Part shown: positions 47,871-56,655 of the stretch, piece after piece | Numbering within the stretch: the first letter of the stretch is position 1 | Layout of the letters: each line of letters starts with the position of its first letter | Origin: Rhizobiales bacterium IMCC20636 | GTDB lineage: Bacteria; Pseudomonadota; Alphaproteobacteria; Rhizobiales; GCA-2746425 | Assembly: GCA_016865015.1 (NCBI GenBank) | Contig: CP018226.1 | Coordinates: 2,387,001 to 2,451,000, forward strand | DNA length: 64,000 nt | Direction of reading: 5' to 3' | Program-made: the position numbers and the translations under genes | The notes under the pieces: model-generated | Database searches by the model: none | What the model was told of the DNA's origin: nothing | The model's input: the letters and a program-made list of their open reading frames with translations, nothing else

Positions 47871-47886
47871 ATAAAGAAGTCTTTAT
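47871..47886. promoter_or_regulatory. Palindrome ATAAAGA-AG-TCTTTAT upstream of the cluster (copy 1)
   Basis: A perfect 16-bp palindrome (18 bp if the flanking C and G are counted) 73 bases before the bmt-like ATG. Almost the same palindrome recurs at 53540-53555 within the same gene cluster and, by eye, nowhere else in the window. Its form suits a dimeric ArsR-type repressor. SahR, an ArsR-family regulator of the methionine cycle in proteobacteria, is a candidate, but I am working from memory on its motif. Confidence 0.6.
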
Positions 47887-47890
47887 GTCG

Positions 47891-47903
47891 ATGAATGATT
47901 CAT
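47891..47903. promoter_or_regulatory. 13-base palindrome just upstream of the bmt-like gene
   Basis: ATGAAT-G-ATTCAT is a perfect odd-length palindrome starting five bases after copy 1 of the repeated palindrome and ending next to TTGACT, a possible -35 element. It may belong to a second regulator or extend the same operator region. Nothing else supports it. Confidence 0.3.
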
Positions 47904-47958
47904 TGACTTTTGACTGTCATGGCGCGATTGCACACGAAACATCCATTGGAAATTTGCC

Positions 47959-48966
47959 ATGACCGCGACGACACTTGCCAGCCTTCTCGACCAAAAACCC
48001 GTTCTTCTGGCCGATGGGGCCACCGGTACAAACTTTTTTGAACAGGGCCTCGGGCCAGGTGATCCACCAGAATTCTGGAATCTGGATGCGCCTGAAAAGG
48101 TGACCGAGTTGCATCAGGCATTTGTTGATGCAGGCTCCGACATCATTCTCACCAACACTTTTGGCTCGAATGCACCGCGGCTGAAACTGCACAAGGCTCA
48201 GGATCGGGTTTTCGAATATAATTCCGCCGGCGCAAAACTGGCGCGTGCCGTGGCTGACGCTGCAGATCGGCCAGTGGTTGTTGCCGGCTCTGTCGGTCCA
48301 ACTGGCGAGTTGTTCGAGCCTCTGGGGGCCATGACTTATGATGATGCCGTCAAAGCCTTTGTGGACCAGATGGAAGGTTTGAAGGACGGTGGTGCGGATG
48401 TGGCCTGGATTGAAACCATGTCTGCCAAGGAAGAAATGAAGGCGGCAGCTGACGCGGCAAATATTTGTGGCCTCCCCTATGTGGTGACGGCCAGTTTCGA
48501 TACTGCCGGTATGACCATGATGGGATTACCGCCATCCGCTATGCCACATCTGCTGGATAGTCTGGAAAAACGCCCGATGGCCGTTGGGGCCAATTGTGGT
48601 GTCGGTGCGTCTGATCTTTTGATGTCAGTCCTGTCGATGTCGGAACAACCGGGCGATATGGTCATCGTTGCCAAAGCCAATTGTGGCATTCCGCAGGTGA
48701 AGGGCGATCAGGTTGAATATACCGGGACACCGGATTTGATGGCAGACTACATCCGTCTGGCTGTTGATTCCGGGGCGCGTATCATCGGTGGCTGCTGTGG
48801 CACGTCACCAGTTCATCTGGCCGCCATGCGTTCAGCACTGGATGCACATGAAAAAGGTGCCCGGCCGGATGAAGCCAAGATTGTCGAAACCATCGGCGCT
48901 ATCGTCAACCCGGTTTCATCCGGTGCCAACAAACCGCCACGTCGTTCCCGACGTCGCGACCGTTAA
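47959..48966 (+). CDS. Homocysteine S-methyltransferase family protein (betaine-homocysteine methyltransferase-like)
   Basis: A zinc-dependent methyltransferase of 335 residues that would make methionine from homocysteine. The barrel opens LLADGATGTNFFEQGL. The zinc ligands are Cys213 (GANCGVG) and Cys279-Cys280 (GGCCGTSP), all present. A betaine-homocysteine methyltransferase (Bmt) is known in Sinorhizobium meliloti, so glycine betaine is a fair guess for the donor, though S-methylmethionine or the corrinoid protein cannot be excluded. The last ten residues (PPRRSRRRDR) are a basic tail outside the usual domain. It is preceded by a palindrome at 47871 and converges on the MttB-like gene with six bases between. 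Confidence 0.85.
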   Translation: MTATTLASLLDQKPVLLADGATGTNFFEQGLGPGDPPEFWNLDAPEKVTELHQAFVDAGSDIILTNTFGSNAPRLKLHKAQDRVFEYNSAGAKLARAVADAADRPVVVAGSVGPTGELFEPLGAMTYDDAVKAFVDQMEGLKDGGADVAWIETMSAKEEMKAAADAANICGLPYVVTASFDTAGMTMMGLPPSAMPHLLDSLEKRPMAVGANCGVGASDLLMSVLSMSEQPGDMVIVAKANCGIPQVKGDQVEYTGTPDLMADYIRLAVDSGARIIGGCCGTSPVHLAAMRSALDAHEKGARPDEAKIVETIGAIVNPVSSGANKPPRRSRRRDR

Positions 48967-48972
48967 GCGGAA

Positions 48973-50637
48973 TTATTTGCTTTTACCGCCATTCAGGCCA
49001 AACGATTCCTGCATGGCGGTACTGCGAATTTTCATTGAGCGCGCCATGGCATCCTTCTTGGGATCCTTGGGCGCGAATGCATCTTCGACACTGTCTTTTT
49101 TCCGCGCAATGAAGGCGTTCAGGGCTTCTTCAATGTCCGGGTCCAGGGGCGGTGCTTCGTAGTCCTGCAACATTTTTTTCCATAATGTATTGGCGCGCTG
49201 TTCTGCTGACTGCTCACCATCTGCGAGCCACTGCTCATAAGAATTGTTGTCGGCAATGGGCGAGCGATAAAAGGCCGTCTCAAAATTTGCCTGTGTGTGT
49301 TCACAGCCCAGATAATGGCTGCCGGGCCCGACTTCGCGGATAGCGTCCATTGCCTGTCCCTTTTCAGACAAGTCCACGCCTTGAGCTACGCGCTGCATCA
49401 TGGCCAATTGATCGCAATCCATGACAAATTTTTCATAGGAAGAAACCAAACCGCCTTCCAGCCAACCGGCCGCGTGCAAGGCAAAATTCACACCGCCCAT
49501 CAGGGTTGGCGTCAGGGTTTGTGCGCTCTCATAAGCGGATTGCGCGTCACAGACCTTGGAGCCGCATAGCGATCCGCCGGAACGGAACGGAATACCAAGA
49601 CGTCTGGCCAGTTGGCCTGCGCCGTACAAGACCAGTGTCGGTTCCGGCGTGCCAAAGGTCGGCGCGCCTGATTGCATGGAGATTGAACTTGCAAATGTAC
49701 CGAAGACTACGGGTGCGCCGGGTCTACACAGCTGAGAAAAGGCTGCTCCGGCGAGGACTTCTGCCAGAATCTGGGTGAGCGTTCCTGCCACAGTGACGGG
49801 TGACATCGCACCGGCAAGAATGAATGGTGACACGATTGTCGCCTGCCCTGCCTTGGCATAGACCTTGAGCGCGCCCAACATGGTGGAATCGAAGACCATC
49901 GGTGAATTTGCGTTGATCAAATTGATCAGGACACAATTCTCATCTACGAATTCATCGCCAAACAACAATTTTGCCATCGCGACAGAATCTTCGGCCCGCT
50001 CCGGATGGGTCACGGAGCCCATAAAGGGTTTGTCCGAGTATTTGATATGCGCCATCACCATATCCAGATGGCGTTTGTTAACCGGCACATCGACTGGTTC
50101 GCATACGGTTCCGCCAGAATGGTGAATTGCCGGTGCCATATAGGCAAGCTTCACAAAATTATGAAAATCCTCAAGGGTTGCGTAGCGGCGCCCACCATCC
50201 AGATCACGCACAAAAGGCGGGCCGTATACCGGCGCAAAAACTGTTGTGTTCCCGCCGATCTGGACAGAGCGCTCCGGATTTCGTGCATGCTGCGTGAACT
50301 CACGCGGGGCGGTCTCTATCAGTTTGCGGCATAGGCCTTTCGGGAATCGGACCCGTTCACCTTGCACATCCGCGCCAGCATCGCGCCACATTTGCAGCGC
50401 TTCCGGGTCTTCGCGGAATTCAATACCGATTTCCTGCAGGACGATATCAGCATTGGCTTCAATCAGGGCCAGACCTTCTTCGTCCAGAATCTCAACGGTT
50501 GGAATTTTGCGCAAAATCGCGGGCAATTGCGGATCGCGACGGTTGGCACGTAACGCCCTGCGGCCATCCATGCCGCCACCACGTTTGCGGCGTGCAGGTT
50601 TGGCAGCGTCTACATTATCCTGATGACTGTCGCTCAT
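48973..50637 (-). CDS. MttB-family (non-pyrrolysine) corrinoid methyltransferase
   Basis: A 554-residue member of the trimethylamine methyltransferase (MttB) superfamily, whose TIM-barrel enzymes move a methyl group from an amine to a corrinoid protein. Blocks include VLQEIGIEFREDPEAL, NTTVFAPVYGPPFVRD and the C-terminal GPGSHYLGCEHTQANF. There is no in-frame UAG, so it is a non-pyrrolysine member. Characterised ones use quaternary amines such as glycine betaine, proline betaine or carnitine. The ATG at 50637 is chosen; 59 upstream codons are non-family. The N-terminus is strongly basic (KPARRKRGGG, GRRALRANRR). It diverges from the corrinoid-protein gene and may share its control region. Confidence 0.88.
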   Translation of the reverse strand: MSDSHQDNVDAAKPARRKRGGGMDGRRALRANRRDPQLPAILRKIPTVEILDEEGLALIEANADIVLQEIGIEFREDPEALQMWRDAGADVQGERVRFPKGLCRKLIETAPREFTQHARNPERSVQIGGNTTVFAPVYGPPFVRDLDGGRRYATLEDFHNFVKLAYMAPAIHHSGGTVCEPVDVPVNKRHLDMVMAHIKYSDKPFMGSVTHPERAEDSVAMAKLLFGDEFVDENCVLINLINANSPMVFDSTMLGALKVYAKAGQATIVSPFILAGAMSPVTVAGTLTQILAEVLAGAAFSQLCRPGAPVVFGTFASSISMQSGAPTFGTPEPTLVLYGAGQLARRLGIPFRSGGSLCGSKVCDAQSAYESAQTLTPTLMGGVNFALHAAGWLEGGLVSSYEKFVMDCDQLAMMQRVAQGVDLSEKGQAMDAIREVGPGSHYLGCEHTQANFETAFYRSPIADNNSYEQWLADGEQSAEQRANTLWKKMLQDYEAPPLDPDIEEALNAFIARKKDSVEDAFAPKDPKKDAMARSMKIRSTAMQESFGLNGGKSK

Positions 50638-50900
50638 GGTAATTGCCCTCAAAAATTGACATAGACAAACATGCCGTATGGCAATGGGATGATGCGTTCT
50701 TATTACGTCATACAGTAGATGCTTTCGCGACAGCCAACCAGCGCAGACTGTTTGGTCAAGGCAAAATTGGTCGCTTTTATTCTCCGCCAAGTCGTTTTCA
50801 GTTGCACCAAACATTAAACAAATGCGGAATACTCTTGCAATTCAGTGCGTGGTATCGCAGTGGAATACCTAATACGTCAAAGTCCGAGAGTGAGCTGGTT

Positions 50901-51602
50901 ATGTCCGACGATGATGACATCATTCTATCCGAATTGGATGACGAAGAACTTGTTCTTCAAATGCATGATGATTTGTATGACGGTCTGAAAGAGGAAATCG
51001 CTGAAGCAGTGAATATTCTGCTGGCGCGAGCCTGGACGCCGTATGATATTCTGACCAAAGCTCTGGTTGAGGGTATGCGGATCGTCGGGATAGATTTTCG
51101 CGACGGAATTCTGTTCGTTCCCGAAGTGCTTCTGGCTGCCGGAGCAATGAAGGAAGGCATGGGCATTCTGCGCCCGCTGTTGACTGAGACCGGCGCGCCC
51201 AAAGTCGGCACAATGGTTGTCGGCACCGTCAAGGGCGATATTCACGACATCGGCAAGAACCTCGTCGGCATGATGATGGAAGGTGCTGGCTTTGATGTAA
51301 TCGATCTGGGCATCAACACCCCGGTTGAAGATTATCTGGCCGCCATAGAAGAACACAAACCTGATATTCTGGGTATGTCTGCCCTGCTCACGACAACGAT
51401 GCCCTATATGAAGGTGGTGATCGACACCATGAAAGAGATGGGCATTCGCGACAAGCACATTGTCCTTGTCGGCGGTGCGCCCTTGAATGAGGAATTTGGC
51501 ATGGCGATTGGCGCCGATGCCTATTGCCGTGACGCTGCTGTGGCTGTGGAAACAGCAAAAGAGTGGATGGCACGCAAACACAACCAGAAGACCAGCGCGT
51601 AA
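50901..51602 (+). CDS. Corrinoid (B12-binding) methyl-shuttle protein
   Basis: A 233-residue two-domain corrinoid protein of the MtaC/MtbC/MttC type, which carries the methyl group between methyltransferases. After an acidic N-terminus (MSDDDDIILSELDDEE) comes the four-helix cap domain (LYDGLKEEIAEAVNILLARA, VPEVLLAAGAM). The Rossmann-like B12 domain has the base-off ligand motif DIHDIG with Asp113, His115 and Gly118. The ATG at 50901 fixes this N-terminus; an 86-codon extension upstream is not family-like. It heads a rightward unit ending with the activator gene. Confidence 0.92.
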   Translation: MSDDDDIILSELDDEELVLQMHDDLYDGLKEEIAEAVNILLARAWTPYDILTKALVEGMRIVGIDFRDGILFVPEVLLAAGAMKEGMGILRPLLTETGAPKVGTMVVGTVKGDIHDIGKNLVGMMMEGAGFDVIDLGINTPVEDYLAAIEEHKPDILGMSALLTTTMPYMKVVIDTMKEMGIRDKHIVLVGGAPLNEEFGMAIGADAYCRDAAVAVETAKEWMARKHNQKTSA

Positions 51603-51646
51603 ACCCGCGACGGGAGTGTTTCCAGCTCCGGTATTGGAGCTACAAG

Positions 51647-52306
51647 ATGTCTCTACCAACTGATGATATTCTCACTGAACAGGGATTTGGCGATTCCGAG
51701 ACAGGGTCCGTTCTTCTAATCGGTTGCGGCGCGTTGGCACGCGAAATACTGGCGTTGAAGGCAGCTAATTCCTGGGATTACATGGTTTTGCGCTGTCTGC
51801 CTGCAAACCTGCATCTGTATCCAGACAAGATCACCCCCGCCGTTCGAGACGCCATTCACAAAGGTCGGGAGGATGGCTTTGGCACCATCTACATCCTCTA
51901 CGCTGATTGCGGAACCGGCGGACATCTTGATGCGATGTGCGAACAGGAAAACGTTGAACGGATTGCCGGTCCGCATTGCTATTCCTTCTTCGACGGCAAT
52001 GCGGCTTTTGCCGCACGTGGCGATGATGAAATGCGGGCTTTTTATCTGACAGACTTTCTGGTCAAGCAATTTGACGCTTTCGTCTGGAAACCCATGGGCC
52101 TTGATCGACACCCTGAATTACGAGACATGTATTTCGGGAATTATGAAAAGCTGATCTATCTGGCTCAGACGAATAATTCCGAACTGGATATCAAGGCTGA
52201 AGCCTGCGCAGACCGCCTTGGTCTGGTCTATGAACGCAGGTCAACAGGTTATGGTGATCTGGAAACATCGATGAAAACCCTTGCCGCGGACAGATCCAGC
52301 ACTTAA
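51647..52306 (+). CDS. DUF1638-domain protein of the corrinoid cluster
   Basis: A 219-residue protein that I assign to DUF1638, a family found beside MttB-type methyltransferases and corrinoid proteins in bacteria and archaea. Its function is unknown. It begins with a Rossmann-like stretch (GSVLLIGCGALAREILALKA) and has conserved-looking cysteines at 27, 50, 88 (LYADCGTGG), 98 and 111 (GPHCYSFFDG), which could bind a metal or cofactor. It lies 44 bases after the corrinoid-protein gene. A role in cofactor loading, repair or as an electron carrier is possible but unproven. Confidence 0.8.
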   Translation: MSLPTDDILTEQGFGDSETGSVLLIGCGALAREILALKAANSWDYMVLRCLPANLHLYPDKITPAVRDAIHKGREDGFGTIYILYADCGTGGHLDAMCEQENVERIAGPHCYSFFDGNAAFAARGDDEMRAFYLTDFLVKQFDAFVWKPMGLDRHPELRDMYFGNYEKLIYLAQTNNSELDIKAEACADRLGLVYERRSTGYGDLETSMKTLAADRSST

Positions 52307-52398
52307 ATCGCGTTCGCAGTCGCATTCCCACCAAGTCATGTCGCTGGTAATGCAGCACCAGACTGACATGAACCACATTCTTGCATCAGGAGCAGTAA

Positions 52399-52713
52399 AT
52401 GGCACAGAAGACCATCGTCTATTGGAAAGACATTCCGACCCAGATCATCGTGAAGGCAGGACGCAAGGCTGCCAAACGTGAATTGCCGGAATATTTCATT
52501 CAATCGGTGGATCAATGTGCCATGCGGCTTGGGGCCAAGGACAGTGATGCCTATCTTGAAGAATGGCGGCGTGGTTCGCCAGAAGAGGTGTCTGGAGATT
52601 TGGAAGCGGAAGCAGATCAGGCCTTGGAGGCCATGATTGCTGCTTACCCCAAAACGCGGCTCAAGGCTTTGATTGATGCTGGAGGCGTTGACCATGGAAC
52701 TCGCGATACCTAG
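52399..52713 (+). CDS. Small 'virulence factor' domain protein (PF13769-like)
   Basis: A 104-residue acidic protein resembling the family labelled 'virulence factor' in Pfam. That label comes from a screen and does not describe a mechanism. The conserved-looking start is TIVYWKDIPTQIIVKAG, followed by RELPEYFIQSVDQCAMRLG. There are no membrane segments and a single cysteine. Its last 20 bases overlap the start of the MetF-like gene, implying coupled translation and perhaps a physical partnership, by analogy with the small MetV partner of MetF in acetogens. That analogy is inference. Confidence 0.72.
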   Translation: MAQKTIVYWKDIPTQIIVKAGRKAAKRELPEYFIQSVDQCAMRLGAKDSDAYLEEWRRGSPEEVSGDLEAEADQALEAMIAAYPKTRLKALIDAGGVDHGTRDT

Positions 52714-53578
52714 ACGACCACTTACTGCATCTATTGAAGCCTCTTCGAAACAGGTCCTGTCCACCGATGGGCTGGGTTCTCTGTTTCCATCCGGCACATG
52801 GGTTTACCTGACAGACGTCGGTGTTGACCCGCTGGACACCATTGTGGCTGCAGCAGCAAAATTACGGGCGTGCGGCCATGTTCCAGTGCCTCACATACCG
52901 GCTCGACGCATCAAAAGCCGGAACGCGCTGGAGTTGCGGGTCGTCCGCCTGACACAAGAAGCTGGAGTGGATAATGTTCTGGTCATCGCCGGTGAAGCAA
53001 ATGATCAGATGGGTCCCTATTCAGCCTCCATCGATATCCTGCACAGCGATATTCTGAACAAACACGGCATCACGAAGATCGGTGTGGCTGGCCATCCGGA
53101 AGGCAACACGGCTATTCCAGCGGAAAATGTGAATTCAATTCTCCTGGAAAAGGCAGCCTATGCCGCCAGGACGGATGCAGAGATGCGGATCGTGACGCAA
53201 TTCGGGTTTGATGCGGACGGTTTCATATCCTGGGCAGACAGTCTTCCTGAGCAAGGCATCGGGCTTCCTGTCCATATGGGCATGGCCGGCCCGGCCAAGA
53301 TGACAACCCTCATAAAATATGCCGCTATTTGTGGCGTAGGTGCCTCCATGAGCTTCCTGATGAAGCGGAGTTCGGCCCTTGCAGCGCTTGCAATGGGCTT
53401 TGATCCGGATCCGATTCTTTTGGCAATGGAGGATCATGTGGCTCGAAATCCATTTTCTCCGATAAAAGCCGCGCATGTTTTTCCCTTTGGCGGGTTGAAA
53501 AAAACTGCGAATTGGCTTGACGAGAGAGGCAGTTGGGACATAAAGAAATCTTTATATCTTGATGCAAATGTGATTTAA
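52694..53578 (+). CDS. Methylenetetrahydrofolate reductase (MetF)-like protein
   Basis: A 294-residue TIM-barrel flavoprotein of the MetF family, which interconverts methyl- and methylene-tetrahydrofolate. Recognisable parts are LTASIEAS near the N-terminus, with the glutamate placed like the catalytic one, VPHIPARRI, LVIAGEANDQMGPY and GVAGHPEGN. The sequence is divergent from housekeeping MetF. In this setting it may run towards methylene-tetrahydrofolate, so that methyl groups removed from amines can be oxidised. The ATG at 52694 follows GGAGG. Copy 2 of the repeated palindrome lies over its last codons. Confidence 0.82.
   Translation: MELAIPRRPLTASIEASSKQVLSTDGLGSLFPSGTWVYLTDVGVDPLDTIVAAAAKLRACGHVPVPHIPARRIKSRNALELRVVRLTQEAGVDNVLVIAGEANDQMGPYSASIDILHSDILNKHGITKIGVAGHPEGNTAIPAENVNSILLEKAAYAARTDAEMRIVTQFGFDADGFISWADSLPEQGIGLPVHMGMAGPAKMTTLIKYAAICGVGASMSFLMKRSSALAALAMGFDPDPILLAMEDHVARNPFSPIKAAHVFPFGGLKKTANWLDERGSWDIKKSLYLDANVI
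53540..53555. promoter_or_regulatory. Palindrome ATAAAGA-AA-TCTTTAT upstream of the MtrH-like gene (copy 2)
   Basis: A perfect-arm 16-bp palindrome that differs from copy 1 (47871-47886) only in the two central bases. It overlaps the last codons of the MetF-like gene and lies 59 bases before the MtrH-like start, where an internal promoter could be. Recurrence in the same cluster argues for a shared repressor. Confidence 0.55.
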
Positions 53579-53613: not shown

Positions 53614-54564
53614 ATGACACAGACTGTTGTCGCGTCTGAAACGCGCACGGCCCTTATCGGCTTCGATCAACCATTCTGCGTGATTGGCGAACGCATCAAT
53701 CCGACCGGCCGCAAAAAGCTGGCGGCGGAAATGCTTGCAGGCAATTTTGACACTGTAACAGCGGATGCGCTTGCTCAGGTTGCCGCGGGTGCGACCATGC
53801 TGGACGTTAATGCAGGCGTTACGAGCATTGATCCCAATGTCAGCGAACCACCACTGCTCGCGGCCACTGTGGAACTGGTTCAGTCTCTTGTCGACGTGCC
53901 TTTGTGCATCGATTCTTCGGTTCCTGCAGCGCTTGCGGCCGCTTTGGCAGTTTGCAAGGGCCGACCATTGGTGAACTCTGTGACTGGTGAAGTGGACCGC
54001 CTCGAACTGGTGCTGCCACTTTGCAAGAAATACGATGTACCAGTGATCGCGATTTCCAATGATGAGACCGGCATCTCCGAAGACCCGGATGTGCGGTTTG
54101 CAGTTGCCAAGAAGATCGTCGAACACGCCATGGATTACGGCATCAAGCCGCACGATATTGTGGTTGATCCGCTGGTGATGCCAATTGGCGCGATGGGGAC
54201 AGCTGGTCTGCAGGTTTTTGCACTGGTGCGTCGCCTGCGTGAAGAATTGAAGGTCAACACCAGTTGCGGTGCCTCGAACATTTCCTTTGGCATTCCACAT
54301 CGTCACGGCATCAATGCCGCCTTTCTCCCGATGGCCATTGCTTCCGGCATGACGTCTGCAATCATGAATCCATGCCGCCCTGCCGAAATGGAAGCCGTTC
54401 ATGCCGCCAATGTTCTGATGGGAACGGACGCCAATTGCCAGACATGGATTTCGACCTATCGGGATCACAAACCCGGCAATGCTGTTGCACCTACTGCCGA
54501 TGCAGGTAGCGGGGGCCGCCGCAGAGGCGGTCGCGGTGCGCGTCTCGCCAGGGAAGCCAAGTAG
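53614..54564 (+). CDS. Methyltetrahydrofolate:corrinoid methyltransferase (MtrH/AcsE-like pterin-binding enzyme)
   Basis: A 316-residue pterin-binding TIM barrel of the MeTr/MtrH/dihydropteroate-synthase superfamily, which exchanges a methyl group between tetrahydrofolate and a corrinoid protein. Blocks are FCVIGERINPTGRKKL, MLDVNAG (Asp64), CIDSSVPAAL, VNSVTGE, VVDPLVMPIG and the SNISFGIPHR motif with the conserved Asn. Dihydropteroate synthase is unlikely given these and the context. After residue 298 a basic tail follows (GGRRRGGRGARLAREAK), outside the normal fold. It is 16 bases from the activator gene. Confidence 0.86.
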   Translation: MTQTVVASETRTALIGFDQPFCVIGERINPTGRKKLAAEMLAGNFDTVTADALAQVAAGATMLDVNAGVTSIDPNVSEPPLLAATVELVQSLVDVPLCIDSSVPAALAAALAVCKGRPLVNSVTGEVDRLELVLPLCKKYDVPVIAISNDETGISEDPDVRFAVAKKIVEHAMDYGIKPHDIVVDPLVMPIGAMGTAGLQVFALVRRLREELKVNTSCGASNISFGIPHRHGINAAFLPMAIASGMTSAIMNPCRPAEMEAVHAANVLMGTDANCQTWISTYRDHKPGNAVAPTADAGSGGRRRGGRGARLAREAK

Positions 54565-54579: not shown

Positions 54580-56655
54580 TTGAGCGATCAAACCAAATCA
54601 GTTGTGGATGACCAATCCGGCGCGGCCAAGGACGCGCTGGTACTGTTCATGCCATCAGGACGACGTGGCAACTTCCCTGTCGGAACGCCTGTGCTTGATG
54701 CTGCACGCTCATTGGGCGTTTATATCGAGTCAGTTTGTGGCGGACGCGGCATTTGCGGCCGATGTCAGGTCACAGTGGCAGAAGGTCAGTTCGCCAAGCA
54801 CGGTATCACGAGTTCTGCAGACCATCTGGCCGCGATCACTGATACTGAAGCAAGGTACCGTTCCAAACGCAGTCTGGCAGATGACCGGCGCTTGTCCTGT
54901 TCTGCAAAAGTCATCGGCGATATTGTCATCGACATTCCCCAGGATGTTCAGATGCAGCGCCAGGTCGTGCGCAAACGCGCCGAGAACAAACGCATTGAAC
55001 GCGACCCGGCCATCCGTCTGCATTTCGTTCAGGTGGAACAGCCTGACATGGAACAGCCCTTGGGCGATCTGGATCGTTTGCTGACCGCGCTGAAGAGCGA
55101 ATGGGAGCTAGAGCATCTGCAGATCGAAAGCTACCTCTATCCGAAGGTTCAGTCCGTTCTCAGAGAGGGCAAATGGGAGGTGACCGCAGCGGTGCATACG
55201 CGCGACGGCATCTCGACACTGATTGGCTTGTGGCCGGGCTTTCATGACAAGTTCTATGGGGTGGCGTTTGATATTGGCTCGACAACGATTGCCTGCCATC
55301 TGTCCGATATGATGAGTGGCAGGACGATTGCGTCATCCGGTACATCCAATCCGCAAATCCGGTTTGGCGAAGACCTGATGTCCCGGGTTTCCTTTGTGAT
55401 GATGAATCCCGGCGGTGAGGAACAACTGACAAAATGCGTGCGTGATGCTGTTCGCAGCCTGATTGAAAAGGTCTGCTCGGAAGCTGGCATAGACCGGCAT
55501 GCGATTCTCGATTCCGTGTTTGTCGGCAATCCGGTCATGCATCATCTGTTTCTCGGAATTGATCCGACTGAATTGGGCGGTGCACCCTTCGCTCTGGCAG
55601 TCTCCGGTGCTCTGGATTTTCCGGCGCGAGATCTTTCTCTCGACCTTCATCCCGGTGCGAGAACCTATATTCTGCCATGTATTGCAGGCCATGTTGGCGC
55701 TGATGCAGCTGCCGCAACTCTGGCGGAAGCACCCCATAAGGAAGACGAGTACACATTGCTGGTTGATGTCGGGACCAATGCTGAAATCATTCTCGGCAAC
55801 AAGGACCGGGTGGTCGCAGCCTCTTCACCAACTGGCCCGGCTTTTGAGGGCGCAGAAATCTCATGTGGTCAGAGAGCCGCTCCGGGCGCTATCGAACGCG
55901 TTCGGATTGATCCTGAATCGCTGGAATCGCGGATCAAGGTGGTTGGCGTTGATGAATGGTCCGATGACCCCAGTTTTGCAGAACAGGTCGAAGCCGTTGG
56001 CATTACTGGTGTGTGCGGATCTGGCATCATTGAAGTGCTGGGCGAGATGTTTCTTGCTGGCCTGATTGACGAAGATGGTGTCATTCAAGGCGACATGGCC
56101 GCAAAGTCAGACCGCGTCATCGCTGATGGCCGGACGTTCAGCTACATCCTGTGGCGTGGCAAGATTGAACTTAAAATCACACAGACAGATATCCGCGCCA
56201 TCCAGTTGGCGAAAGCTGCGCTTTATGCCGGGGTGAAGCTGTTGATGGACAAGCTGGAAATCACCGAGATACGCAAGGTCAAACTTGCTGGTGCGTTTGG
56301 CAGTTACATAGATCCGAAATACGCCATTCTCATAGGGTTGATCCCGGATTGTGATCTGAGCAAGGTTTCCGGTGTCGGCAATGCTGCTGGTACTGGGGCT
56401 CGCATGGCGTTGCTTAATCGGGGGCATCGTCTGGAAATTGAAGCGCTTGTTCGCCGGATCGAAAAGATTGAGACTGCGCTGGAGCCAAAGTTTCAAGAGC
56501 ATTTCGTCAACGCGATGGCGTTCCCGAACAAGGTTGATGCTTTTCCCAATCTGGCTGAAAAAGTTAAGCTGCCTGAACGCAAACAGAATTCCTCATCAGC
56601 GGATGGTTCCACAGGTGGCCGTCGGCGCCGTCGGTCTCGTCGTTCAGTTGAATGA
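54580..56655 (+). CDS. Corrinoid activation protein (RACo-like ferredoxin/ASKHA ATPase)
   Basis: A 691-residue reductive activator that would use ATP to bring oxidised cob(II)alamin of the shuttle protein back to cob(I)alamin. Residues 18-112 form a [2Fe-2S] ferredoxin with Cys53, Cys59, Cys62 and Cys107. A linker and middle domain follow, and then the ASKHA ATPase domain with AFDIGSTTIACHL, FVGNPVMHH, LLVDVGTNAEIIL and LAGAFGSYID. The start is TTG at 54580, preceded by CGGAG; no nearby ATG fits. The tail is basic (GGRRRRRSRRSVE). It is the last gene of the rightward unit. Confidence 0.9.
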   Translation: MSDQTKSVVDDQSGAAKDALVLFMPSGRRGNFPVGTPVLDAARSLGVYIESVCGGRGICGRCQVTVAEGQFAKHGITSSADHLAAITDTEARYRSKRSLADDRRLSCSAKVIGDIVIDIPQDVQMQRQVVRKRAENKRIERDPAIRLHFVQVEQPDMEQPLGDLDRLLTALKSEWELEHLQIESYLYPKVQSVLREGKWEVTAAVHTRDGISTLIGLWPGFHDKFYGVAFDIGSTTIACHLSDMMSGRTIASSGTSNPQIRFGEDLMSRVSFVMMNPGGEEQLTKCVRDAVRSLIEKVCSEAGIDRHAILDSVFVGNPVMHHLFLGIDPTELGGAPFALAVSGALDFPARDLSLDLHPGARTYILPCIAGHVGADAAAATLAEAPHKEDEYTLLVDVGTNAEIILGNKDRVVAASSPTGPAFEGAEISCGQRAAPGAIERVRIDPESLESRIKVVGVDEWSDDPSFAEQVEAVGITGVCGSGIIEVLGEMFLAGLIDEDGVIQGDMAAKSDRVIADGRTFSYILWRGKIELKITQTDIRAIQLAKAALYAGVKLLMDKLEITEIRKVKLAGAFGSYIDPKYAILIGLIPDCDLSKVSGVGNAAGTGARMALLNRGHRLEIEALVRRIEKIETALEPKFQEHFVNAMAFPNKVDAFPNLAEKVKLPERKQNSSSADGSTGGRRRRRSRRSVE

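Follow-up and report, generated by a model that had tools for sequence, protein, structure and literature searches.

A stretch of 64,000 nucleotides from Rhizobiales bacterium IMCC20636 (the window) carries the same 16-bp palindrome in front of two genes of one corrinoid-dependent cluster, raising the question of whether a single dimeric regulator governs both genes, and which. The cluster encodes a split methionine synthase/glycine-betaine methyltransferase (mtgE, mtgB, mtgC, DUF1638, VirF, metF2, mtgD and ramA). Its features are listed below; SahR, a repressor known from bacteria that responds to a by-product of methylation, is the proposed regulator.

47871-47886, no strand: predicted SahR operator 1, ATAAAGAAGTCTTTAT, 72 bp before the mtgE start codon
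47959-48966, plus strand: mtgE, homocysteine S-methyltransferase module (PF02574; NF005718 above cut-off)
48973-50637, minus strand: mtgB-like methyltransferase, MTTB family (PF06253; TIGR02369 below cut-off)
50901-51602, plus strand: mtgC, corrinoid protein (PF02310 and PF02607)
51647-52306, plus strand: DUF1638 protein (PF07796)
52399-52713, plus strand: small PF13769 (VirF) protein
52694-53578, plus strand: metF2, divergent MTHFR-like gene hosting operator 2 (PF02219 at 21.5 bits, below the cut-off of 24; start ATG picked by eye)
53517-53522, plus strand: -35 element TTGACG of an internal mtgD promoter, presumed from the sequence
53540-53555, no strand: predicted SahR operator 2, ATAAAGAAATCTTTAT, within the coding 3' end of metF2; the mtgD start codon follows after 58 bp
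53614-54564, plus strand: mtgD, methyltetrahydrofolate:corrinoid methyltransferase module, MtrH-like (PF00809; NF005719 above cut-off)
54580-56655, plus strand: ramA-like corrinoid reactivase (PF14574, PF17651, PF17650 and PF00111)

The mtgE product is annotated as betaine-homocysteine S-methyltransferase (bhmT), and mtgE homologues bear the same label. Because its TIGR02369 score is below cut-off, the mtgB-like protein is not the pyrrolysine enzyme. The DUF1638 protein is tied to B12 reactivation in Phaeobacter (PMC5764234), and ramA, 15 bp behind mtgD, is presumably co-transcribed with it. Note that the family name of PF13769, 'Virulence factor', is uninformative as to a role in the cluster. 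Genome searches found neither the MetH reactivation domain nor MetE, leaving the split enzyme as the only methionine synthase by both searches. The combination expected of MtgBCDE is present: separate homocysteine, B12 and pterin modules, RamA-like and DUF1638 proteins, and no MetH.

An earlier note on this DNA had described two palindromes with identical arms; both are exactly in place and match the pattern ATAAAGANNTCTTTAT with 0 mismatches. They are the sole matches in the window even when 3 mismatches are allowed, a tolerance at which shuffled sequences average 1.04. The note had seen no third copy, which holds within the window, but the 4.79-Mb genome contains a third perfect copy before ahcY. 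A genome-wide motif search gave 11 places in total, 3 perfect, 0 with 1 mismatch and 8 with 2 mismatches. The reversed pattern, used as a control on the same genome, matched 4 places at a tolerance of 2 mismatches and 1 place at a tolerance of 1. Five of the 11 precede methionine/SAM-cycle genes (mtgE, mtgD, ahcY, sahR-metF and metK), in support of the methionine-cycle control for which the note had suggested such a search. The ahcY and metK sites lie 100 bp and 104 bp before their genes, and the sahR and metK sites each carry 2 mismatches. The remaining places overlap open frames (4) or are intergenic beside unrelated genes (2). Conservation in close relatives, another check the note had named, was also found, both cluster sites being kept in 5/5 congeners with at most 1 mismatch: site 2 is identical in all five, and site 1 has 0-1 mismatch whereas the flank upstream of it has diverged.

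The note had guessed at an ArsR-type regulator of the SahR kind while observing, correctly, that the cluster contains no regulator gene. A gene of this kind exists 838 kb away, with the canonical metF behind it and, 16 bp upstream of its start codon, a site with 2 mismatches; the guess is well supported. SahR joins an ArsR-type HTH and a C-terminal SAM-methyltransferase-like domain in one protein. The candidate, encoded by 1023 bp, has 340 residues, with PF01022 at 23-66 and PF08241 at 160-256. Upstream of sahR orthologues the palindrome was present in 57/59 Hyphomicrobiales genomes (29/30 relatives' genomes and 29/30 named loci, one genome being in both sets; relative G004 was counted through the 5' fragment L173), and only 1 of 600 shuffles gave a match within 2 mismatches. 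The motif was absent altogether from 4/7 genomes without sahR compared with 1/54 genomes with it (Fisher 3e-4). Exceptions among the relatives are G026, with no site at sahR, and G032, which has sahR and no motif within 1 mismatch; a sahR match was missing in 2/28 site-bearing genomes (L121 and L148, both metagenome-assembled). The SahR core targets ahcY, metF (behind sahR), metK and methionine synthase (here the modules mtgE and mtgD) are each preceded by a site. Sinorhizobium kostiense (L266) and S. americanum (L262) carry the palindrome before sahR with 0 mismatches; they are congeners of a species with a published sahR site, a comparison made at the level of the genus.

We then have the distribution of sites across 80 mtgD loci (1.54 Mb, including L083, a duplicate of G004), searched with at most 2 mismatches. 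Over the full 1.54 Mb the pattern matched 42 places compared with 1 for its reverse. In the 250 bp upstream of genes, sites preceded mtgE in 11/13 cases and mtgD in 28/78, with shuffles giving 0.1 or less, and in the same interval none was found before mtgB (0/68), mtgC (0/73), DUF1638 (0/74), VirF (0/77), metF2 (0/22) or ramA (0/78). The mtgD site is patchy, occurring in the 28/78 named genomes and in 8/30 relatives. A chance origin of the palindromes is rejected by the window, genome, control-pattern and related-loci counts. A terminator reading was likewise rejected, since no terminator-like site overlaps either palindrome; one stem, at 47887-47907, starts right after operator 1. No Rfam match reached the gathering score in the window or the ahcY, sahR and metK stretches (87,330 bases), and an RNA-element reading was rejected on this ground.

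The note had placed a second promoter inside the rightward unit. This fits and can be made more precise, both site 2 and a -35-like TTGACG lying within metF2 coding sequence: TTGACG (53517-53522) is followed by a 17-nt spacer and ATAAAG (53540-53545), which is the left arm of operator 2. Site 2 may therefore overlap the -10 element of an internal mtgD promoter, with ATAAAG as the presumed -10. At 24/35 mtgD sites and 14/29 sahR sites, TTG[AC] occupies -25 to -20 relative to the motif. Note that the -35 argument rests on this motif-offset count, because a consensus sigma-70 scan found no promoter overlapping either site.

The note had taken both sites to be intergenic, which needs correcting for site 2: it falls within the final codons of the metF-like gene, whose end is at 53578. 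Being wholly within the metF2 frame, and with flanks also conserved in the genus (0.77 invariant), site 2 could be a stretch of coding sequence with an accidental palindrome, what is conserved being the peptide IKKSLY. We consider this barely credible, the least probable of the alternatives. The peptide dictated by the site at the metF2 C-terminal coding end, IK[K/T/N/I]SLY, is present in 11/11 metF2 proteins from genes with the site and in 0/17 from genes without it. Among the congeners, a 28-bp run over site 2 is the only invariant run of at least 12 bases in the 882-column metF2 alignment; all third positions within it are invariant, compared with only 56/294 (19%) across the gene. Moreover, where a locus has no adjacent metF2, the palindrome occurs 17-27 bp upstream of mtgD in sequence other than metF2. 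A purely coding origin was rejected on the peptide distribution and the third-position invariance.

SahR might also bind the palindromes and yet activate mtgE, or loop between the two sites. At mtgE in 5/5 congeners the best conserved -35-like element, TTGAC[AT] (TTGACA or TTGACT), is 16 bp downstream of the site, placing operator 1 upstream of such a promoter, which is unusual for a simple repressor; and a loop could span the 5.67 kb between the two sites. At the mtgE sites of other loci, however, 9/15 cases, none from the five congeners, have a TTG 10 bp upstream of the motif, so that the -10 would fall within the operator's right arm. Other loci with an mtgD site often have mtgE elsewhere, and looping is thus not general. 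In Ensifer and Desulfovibrio, moreover, SahR is reported to act as a repressor (PMC8877191), and we regard activation or looping as unlikely. Far less probable still is that the palindromes serve another ArsR-type or an unrelated dimeric regulator, for which the genome, with its 12 HTH_5 matches, would offer candidates: the palindrome precedes the orthologues of the ArsR-methyltransferase fusion gene itself in those 57/59 genomes, as is usual for a regulator that controls its own gene, and the remaining targets, ahcY, metK, metF and bhmT, are known for SahR from PMC4239095 and PMC8877191.

The palindromes are thus very probably docking sites for SahR, putting two parts of the split methionine synthase under its control. 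What was observed is the sites and how they are conserved, together with the gene for the regulator and the site in front of that gene; from these we infer binding, S-adenosylhomocysteine (SAH) as ligand, repression and the promoter positions. Dimeric SahR, encoded before the canonical metF, would occupy both palindromes, cover the promoter -10 region from the left arm and centre, and hold mtgE and mtgD-ramA low. Rising SAH would bind the C-terminal methyltransferase-like domain, SahR would leave the DNA, and metF, mtgD-ramA, mtgE, metK and ahcY, the whole SAM cycle, would go up together. Site 2 would provide a separate start for mtgD-ramA within the mtgC-DUF1638-VirF-metF2 unit, and the folate and homocysteine modules would follow SAH, while mtgB and mtgC carry no site. 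To this overall model, SahR operators with SAH-relieved repression of mtgE and mtgD-ramA, we assign a probability of roughly 0.9.

The patchy mtgD site may be linked to loss of MetH. After one duplicate genome was dropped, the pooled data showed the site in 31/42 genomes without full-length MetH compared with 5/65 with it (duplicate rows dropped: L083, equal to relative G004, and L094, equal to G052). Among the first 50 named genomes the counts were 14/16 without and 3/33 with MetH (L091, with 65 bp upstream only, was left unscored); among 29 held-out genomes whose outcome was predicted beforehand, 9/9 and 2/20; and among the relatives, 8/17 and 0/13. On a five-protein tree, with 8 MetH changes and 10 site changes, 6 independent pairs gave 4.1 in the same and 1.0 in the opposite direction (median p 0.375); an mtgD-only tree gave 3.0 versus 0.2 in 5 pairs (p 0.25). 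Because rows share descent and the tree-aware test is not significant, the link is suggestive, not proved.

Methionine synthesis and the breakdown of glycine betaine, a route of major importance for carbon and nitrogen in the sea, both draw on MtgC and MtgD (PMC12478193), and how cells separate the two uses is not addressed in the Results of that paper. If mtgE and mtgD-ramA start under SAH control, as proposed, and mtgB and mtgC do not, this would be a concrete and testable answer. In a broader form, SahR would cut MtgBCDE into a SAH-responsive methionine half (mtgE, mtgD-ramA) and a non-responsive betaine half (mtgB, mtgC-DUF1638-VirF-metF2), and lineages lacking MetH would acquire or keep the mtgD operator, which, in the genus of this bacterium and in no fewer than 5 further genomes, would sit in the metF2 coding tail and dictate its last residues; we give this combined proposal even odds. 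The mtgD operator would fill a gap in the SahR regulon of genomes without MetH, and site 2 would illustrate cleanly how an operator and promoter can be housed in the end of a protein-coding gene.

Finally, we compared the locus with known systems. SAH and SAM-SAH riboswitches provide other SAH-based control of SAM-cycle genes; the stretches searched here gave no Rfam match at gathering score. MtgBCDE (Mausz et al. 2025, PMC12478193; Price et al. 2018, PMC5764234) is alike in its modules, reactivation proteins and metF paralogue, and is described as needed for methionine synthesis and growth on glycine betaine in Ruegeria/Phaeobacter. The main text of the PNAS paper (PMC12478193) contains neither the word SahR nor the word promoter, and PMC4239095 describes SahR as largely missing from Rhodobacterales, where MtgBCDE was studied, and reports MetR there. 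Searches of an open-access library, the supplement of PMC4239095 aside, turned up no report of mtgD as a SahR target, of the embedded operator or of the MetH link; the target 'metH2' of that paper may or may not cover mtgD. SahR (original paper: Novichkov 2014) and its bhmT (mtgE) target are already in print. The alphaproteobacterial SahR regulon is alike in its ArsR-family regulator, its palindromic site (given as 20 bp by Leyn et al. 2014, PMC4239095) and its published targets sahR, metF, ahcY, metK and bhmT (PMC4239095, PMC8877191), and sahR of Ensifer aridi (PMC8877191) is equal in length, 1023 bp, to the gene of this genome. In contrast to the published regulon, this genome lacks metH, and mtgD-ramA stands in its place, with the predicted operator inside the end of metF2.

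An earlier note placed two copies of one 16-bp palindrome in front of genes of the corrinoid cluster, and both positions were confirmed exactly. The elements concerned are as follows:

47871-47886, operator 1, before mtgE
47887-47907, inverted repeat GTCGATGAAT-G-ATTCATTGAC right behind operator 1, flagged as terminator-like
52399-52713, gene of the PF13769 protein (VirF)
52694-53578, metF2, a metF paralogue, its start overlapped by about 20 bp by the PF13769 gene
53517-53522, TTGACG
53540-53555, operator 2, before mtgD

The two palindromes are the sole matches in the window, even when three mismatches are allowed. The genome-wide motif search proposed in the note, run on the single contig of 4,790,321 bases, returned three exact matches and eight copies with two mismatches, but no copy with a single mismatch; five of these 11 places precede methionine/SAM-cycle genes. 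The third exact match lies upstream of ahcY (S-adenosylhomocysteine hydrolase), its end 100 bp from the gene. Two-mismatch copies end 16 bp ahead of an ArsR-methyltransferase gene (sahR), directly followed by the canonical metF, and 104 bp ahead of metK. Of the other six copies at this tolerance, four overlap open frames; the remaining two fall between genes, one next to a nucleotidyl transferase/transglycosylase pair and one next to a YkuD protein.

The regulator has 340 residues and combines an ArsR HTH (PF01022) with a methyltransferase domain (PF08241); 54 of the 61 genomes searched from the order have an orthologue. The palindrome (≤2 mismatches) lies upstream of its gene in 29/30 relatives (the exception is G026; G004 was scored through a 5' fragment, L173) and at 29/30 named loci, giving 57/59 genomes when pooled, as the two sets share one genome. 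Only 1 of 600 shuffled draws reached two mismatches. Across the 61 genomes, the motif (≤1 mismatch) was absent from 4/7 without the regulator, compared to 1/54 with it. In four congeners (L178 to L181) the left arm of the sahR operator is whole, the right arm has decayed, and an additional half-site TAAAGATATAAAGAT overlaps the operator; this may mean weaker self-control. At L121 and L148 the mtgD site is present and no sahR match was found; both assemblies are metagenome-derived and may therefore lack the gene.

We surveyed 80 named loci around mtgD (1,537,158 bases; L083 is the same genome as congener G004). They hold 42 places within two mismatches, against one with the reversed pattern. 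A site occurs within 250 bp upstream of mtgE at 11/13 loci and of mtgD at 28/78, and was not found in that interval before mtgB (0/68), mtgC (0/73), DUF1638 (0/74), VirF (0/77), metF2 (0/22) or ramA (0/78); shuffle means were 0.1 or less. The last two places are close to none of the cluster genes. The comparison of related genomes suggested earlier bore out conservation, both sites being kept in all five congeners, with one mismatch in site 1 in two of them. Among 30 mtgD-bearing relatives, eight carry a site near mtgD (the congeners, G033, G046 and G011). In two more, G026 (L046) and G040 (L049), a SahR-like site lies 1.07 and 1.40 kb upstream; these represent two families without MetH.

Neither a MetH reactivation domain nor MetE was found in the genome studied here. 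The mtgD site is present in 31/42 genomes without the reactivation domain versus 5/65 with it, and in a second batch, with the outcome predicted before the search, in 9/9 versus 2/20, although a tree-aware pair test gave no significance because lineages are shared. G013 and G043, among the exceptions lacking both MetH and the site, are also without sahR.

Site 2 sits within the final codons of metF2, and in 11 genomes a site in this same frame encodes IK[K/T/N/I]SLY, the variable residue matching the free centre of the palindrome; this peptide is absent from all 17 metF2 proteins without an in-frame site (L083 counted once). In the alignment of the five congeners (882 columns), the only invariant run of at least 12 bases is 28 bp covering the operator, although just 56/294 third positions of metF2 are invariant.

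TTGACG, within codons of the conserved WLDERG, stands 17 bp ahead of the left arm ATAAAG. TTG[AC] occurs 20-25 bp ahead of the motif at 24/35 mtgD and 14/29 sahR sites, compared to 0-8 and 0-4 in same-width control windows. With this spacing the operator would cover the -10 element of an internal promoter, as a repressor should. The arrangement at mtgE is less clear than at mtgD: TTG lies 10 bp upstream at 9/15 sites, and in the window's genus a conserved TTGAC[AT] lies 16 bp downstream. The inverted repeat behind operator 1 is not kept in congeners and is thus probably due to chance.

The best reading is that SahR would repress sahR-metF, ahcY, metK, mtgE and mtgD-ramA and be released by S-adenosylhomocysteine. 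The analysis establishes the sites, their conservation, the regulator and the site before its own gene, whereas we infer binding as well as the ligand, the sign of control and where the promoters lie. In an enzyme that works both ways, the modules that make methionine would then track the cell's methylation state; mtgB and the mtgC unit have no such site. Our searches of an open-access literature library turned up no account of mtgD-ramA as a target, of an operator inside metF2 or of the MetH link; the 'metH2' of PMC4239095 might overlap mtgD.

Earlier work had already described the regulator, this type of motif and bhmT (mtgE) as a target. The cluster comprises mtgE, an MTTB-family mtgB, mtgC, DUF1638, the PF13769 protein, metF2 (its reaction uncertain, since it scores below the Pfam MTHFR cut-off), mtgD and a ramA-like reactivase. 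These modules are those of the split methionine synthase described from Phaeobacter (PMC5764234); in Ruegeria this enzyme has been shown also to serve glycine-betaine demethylation (PMC12478193).
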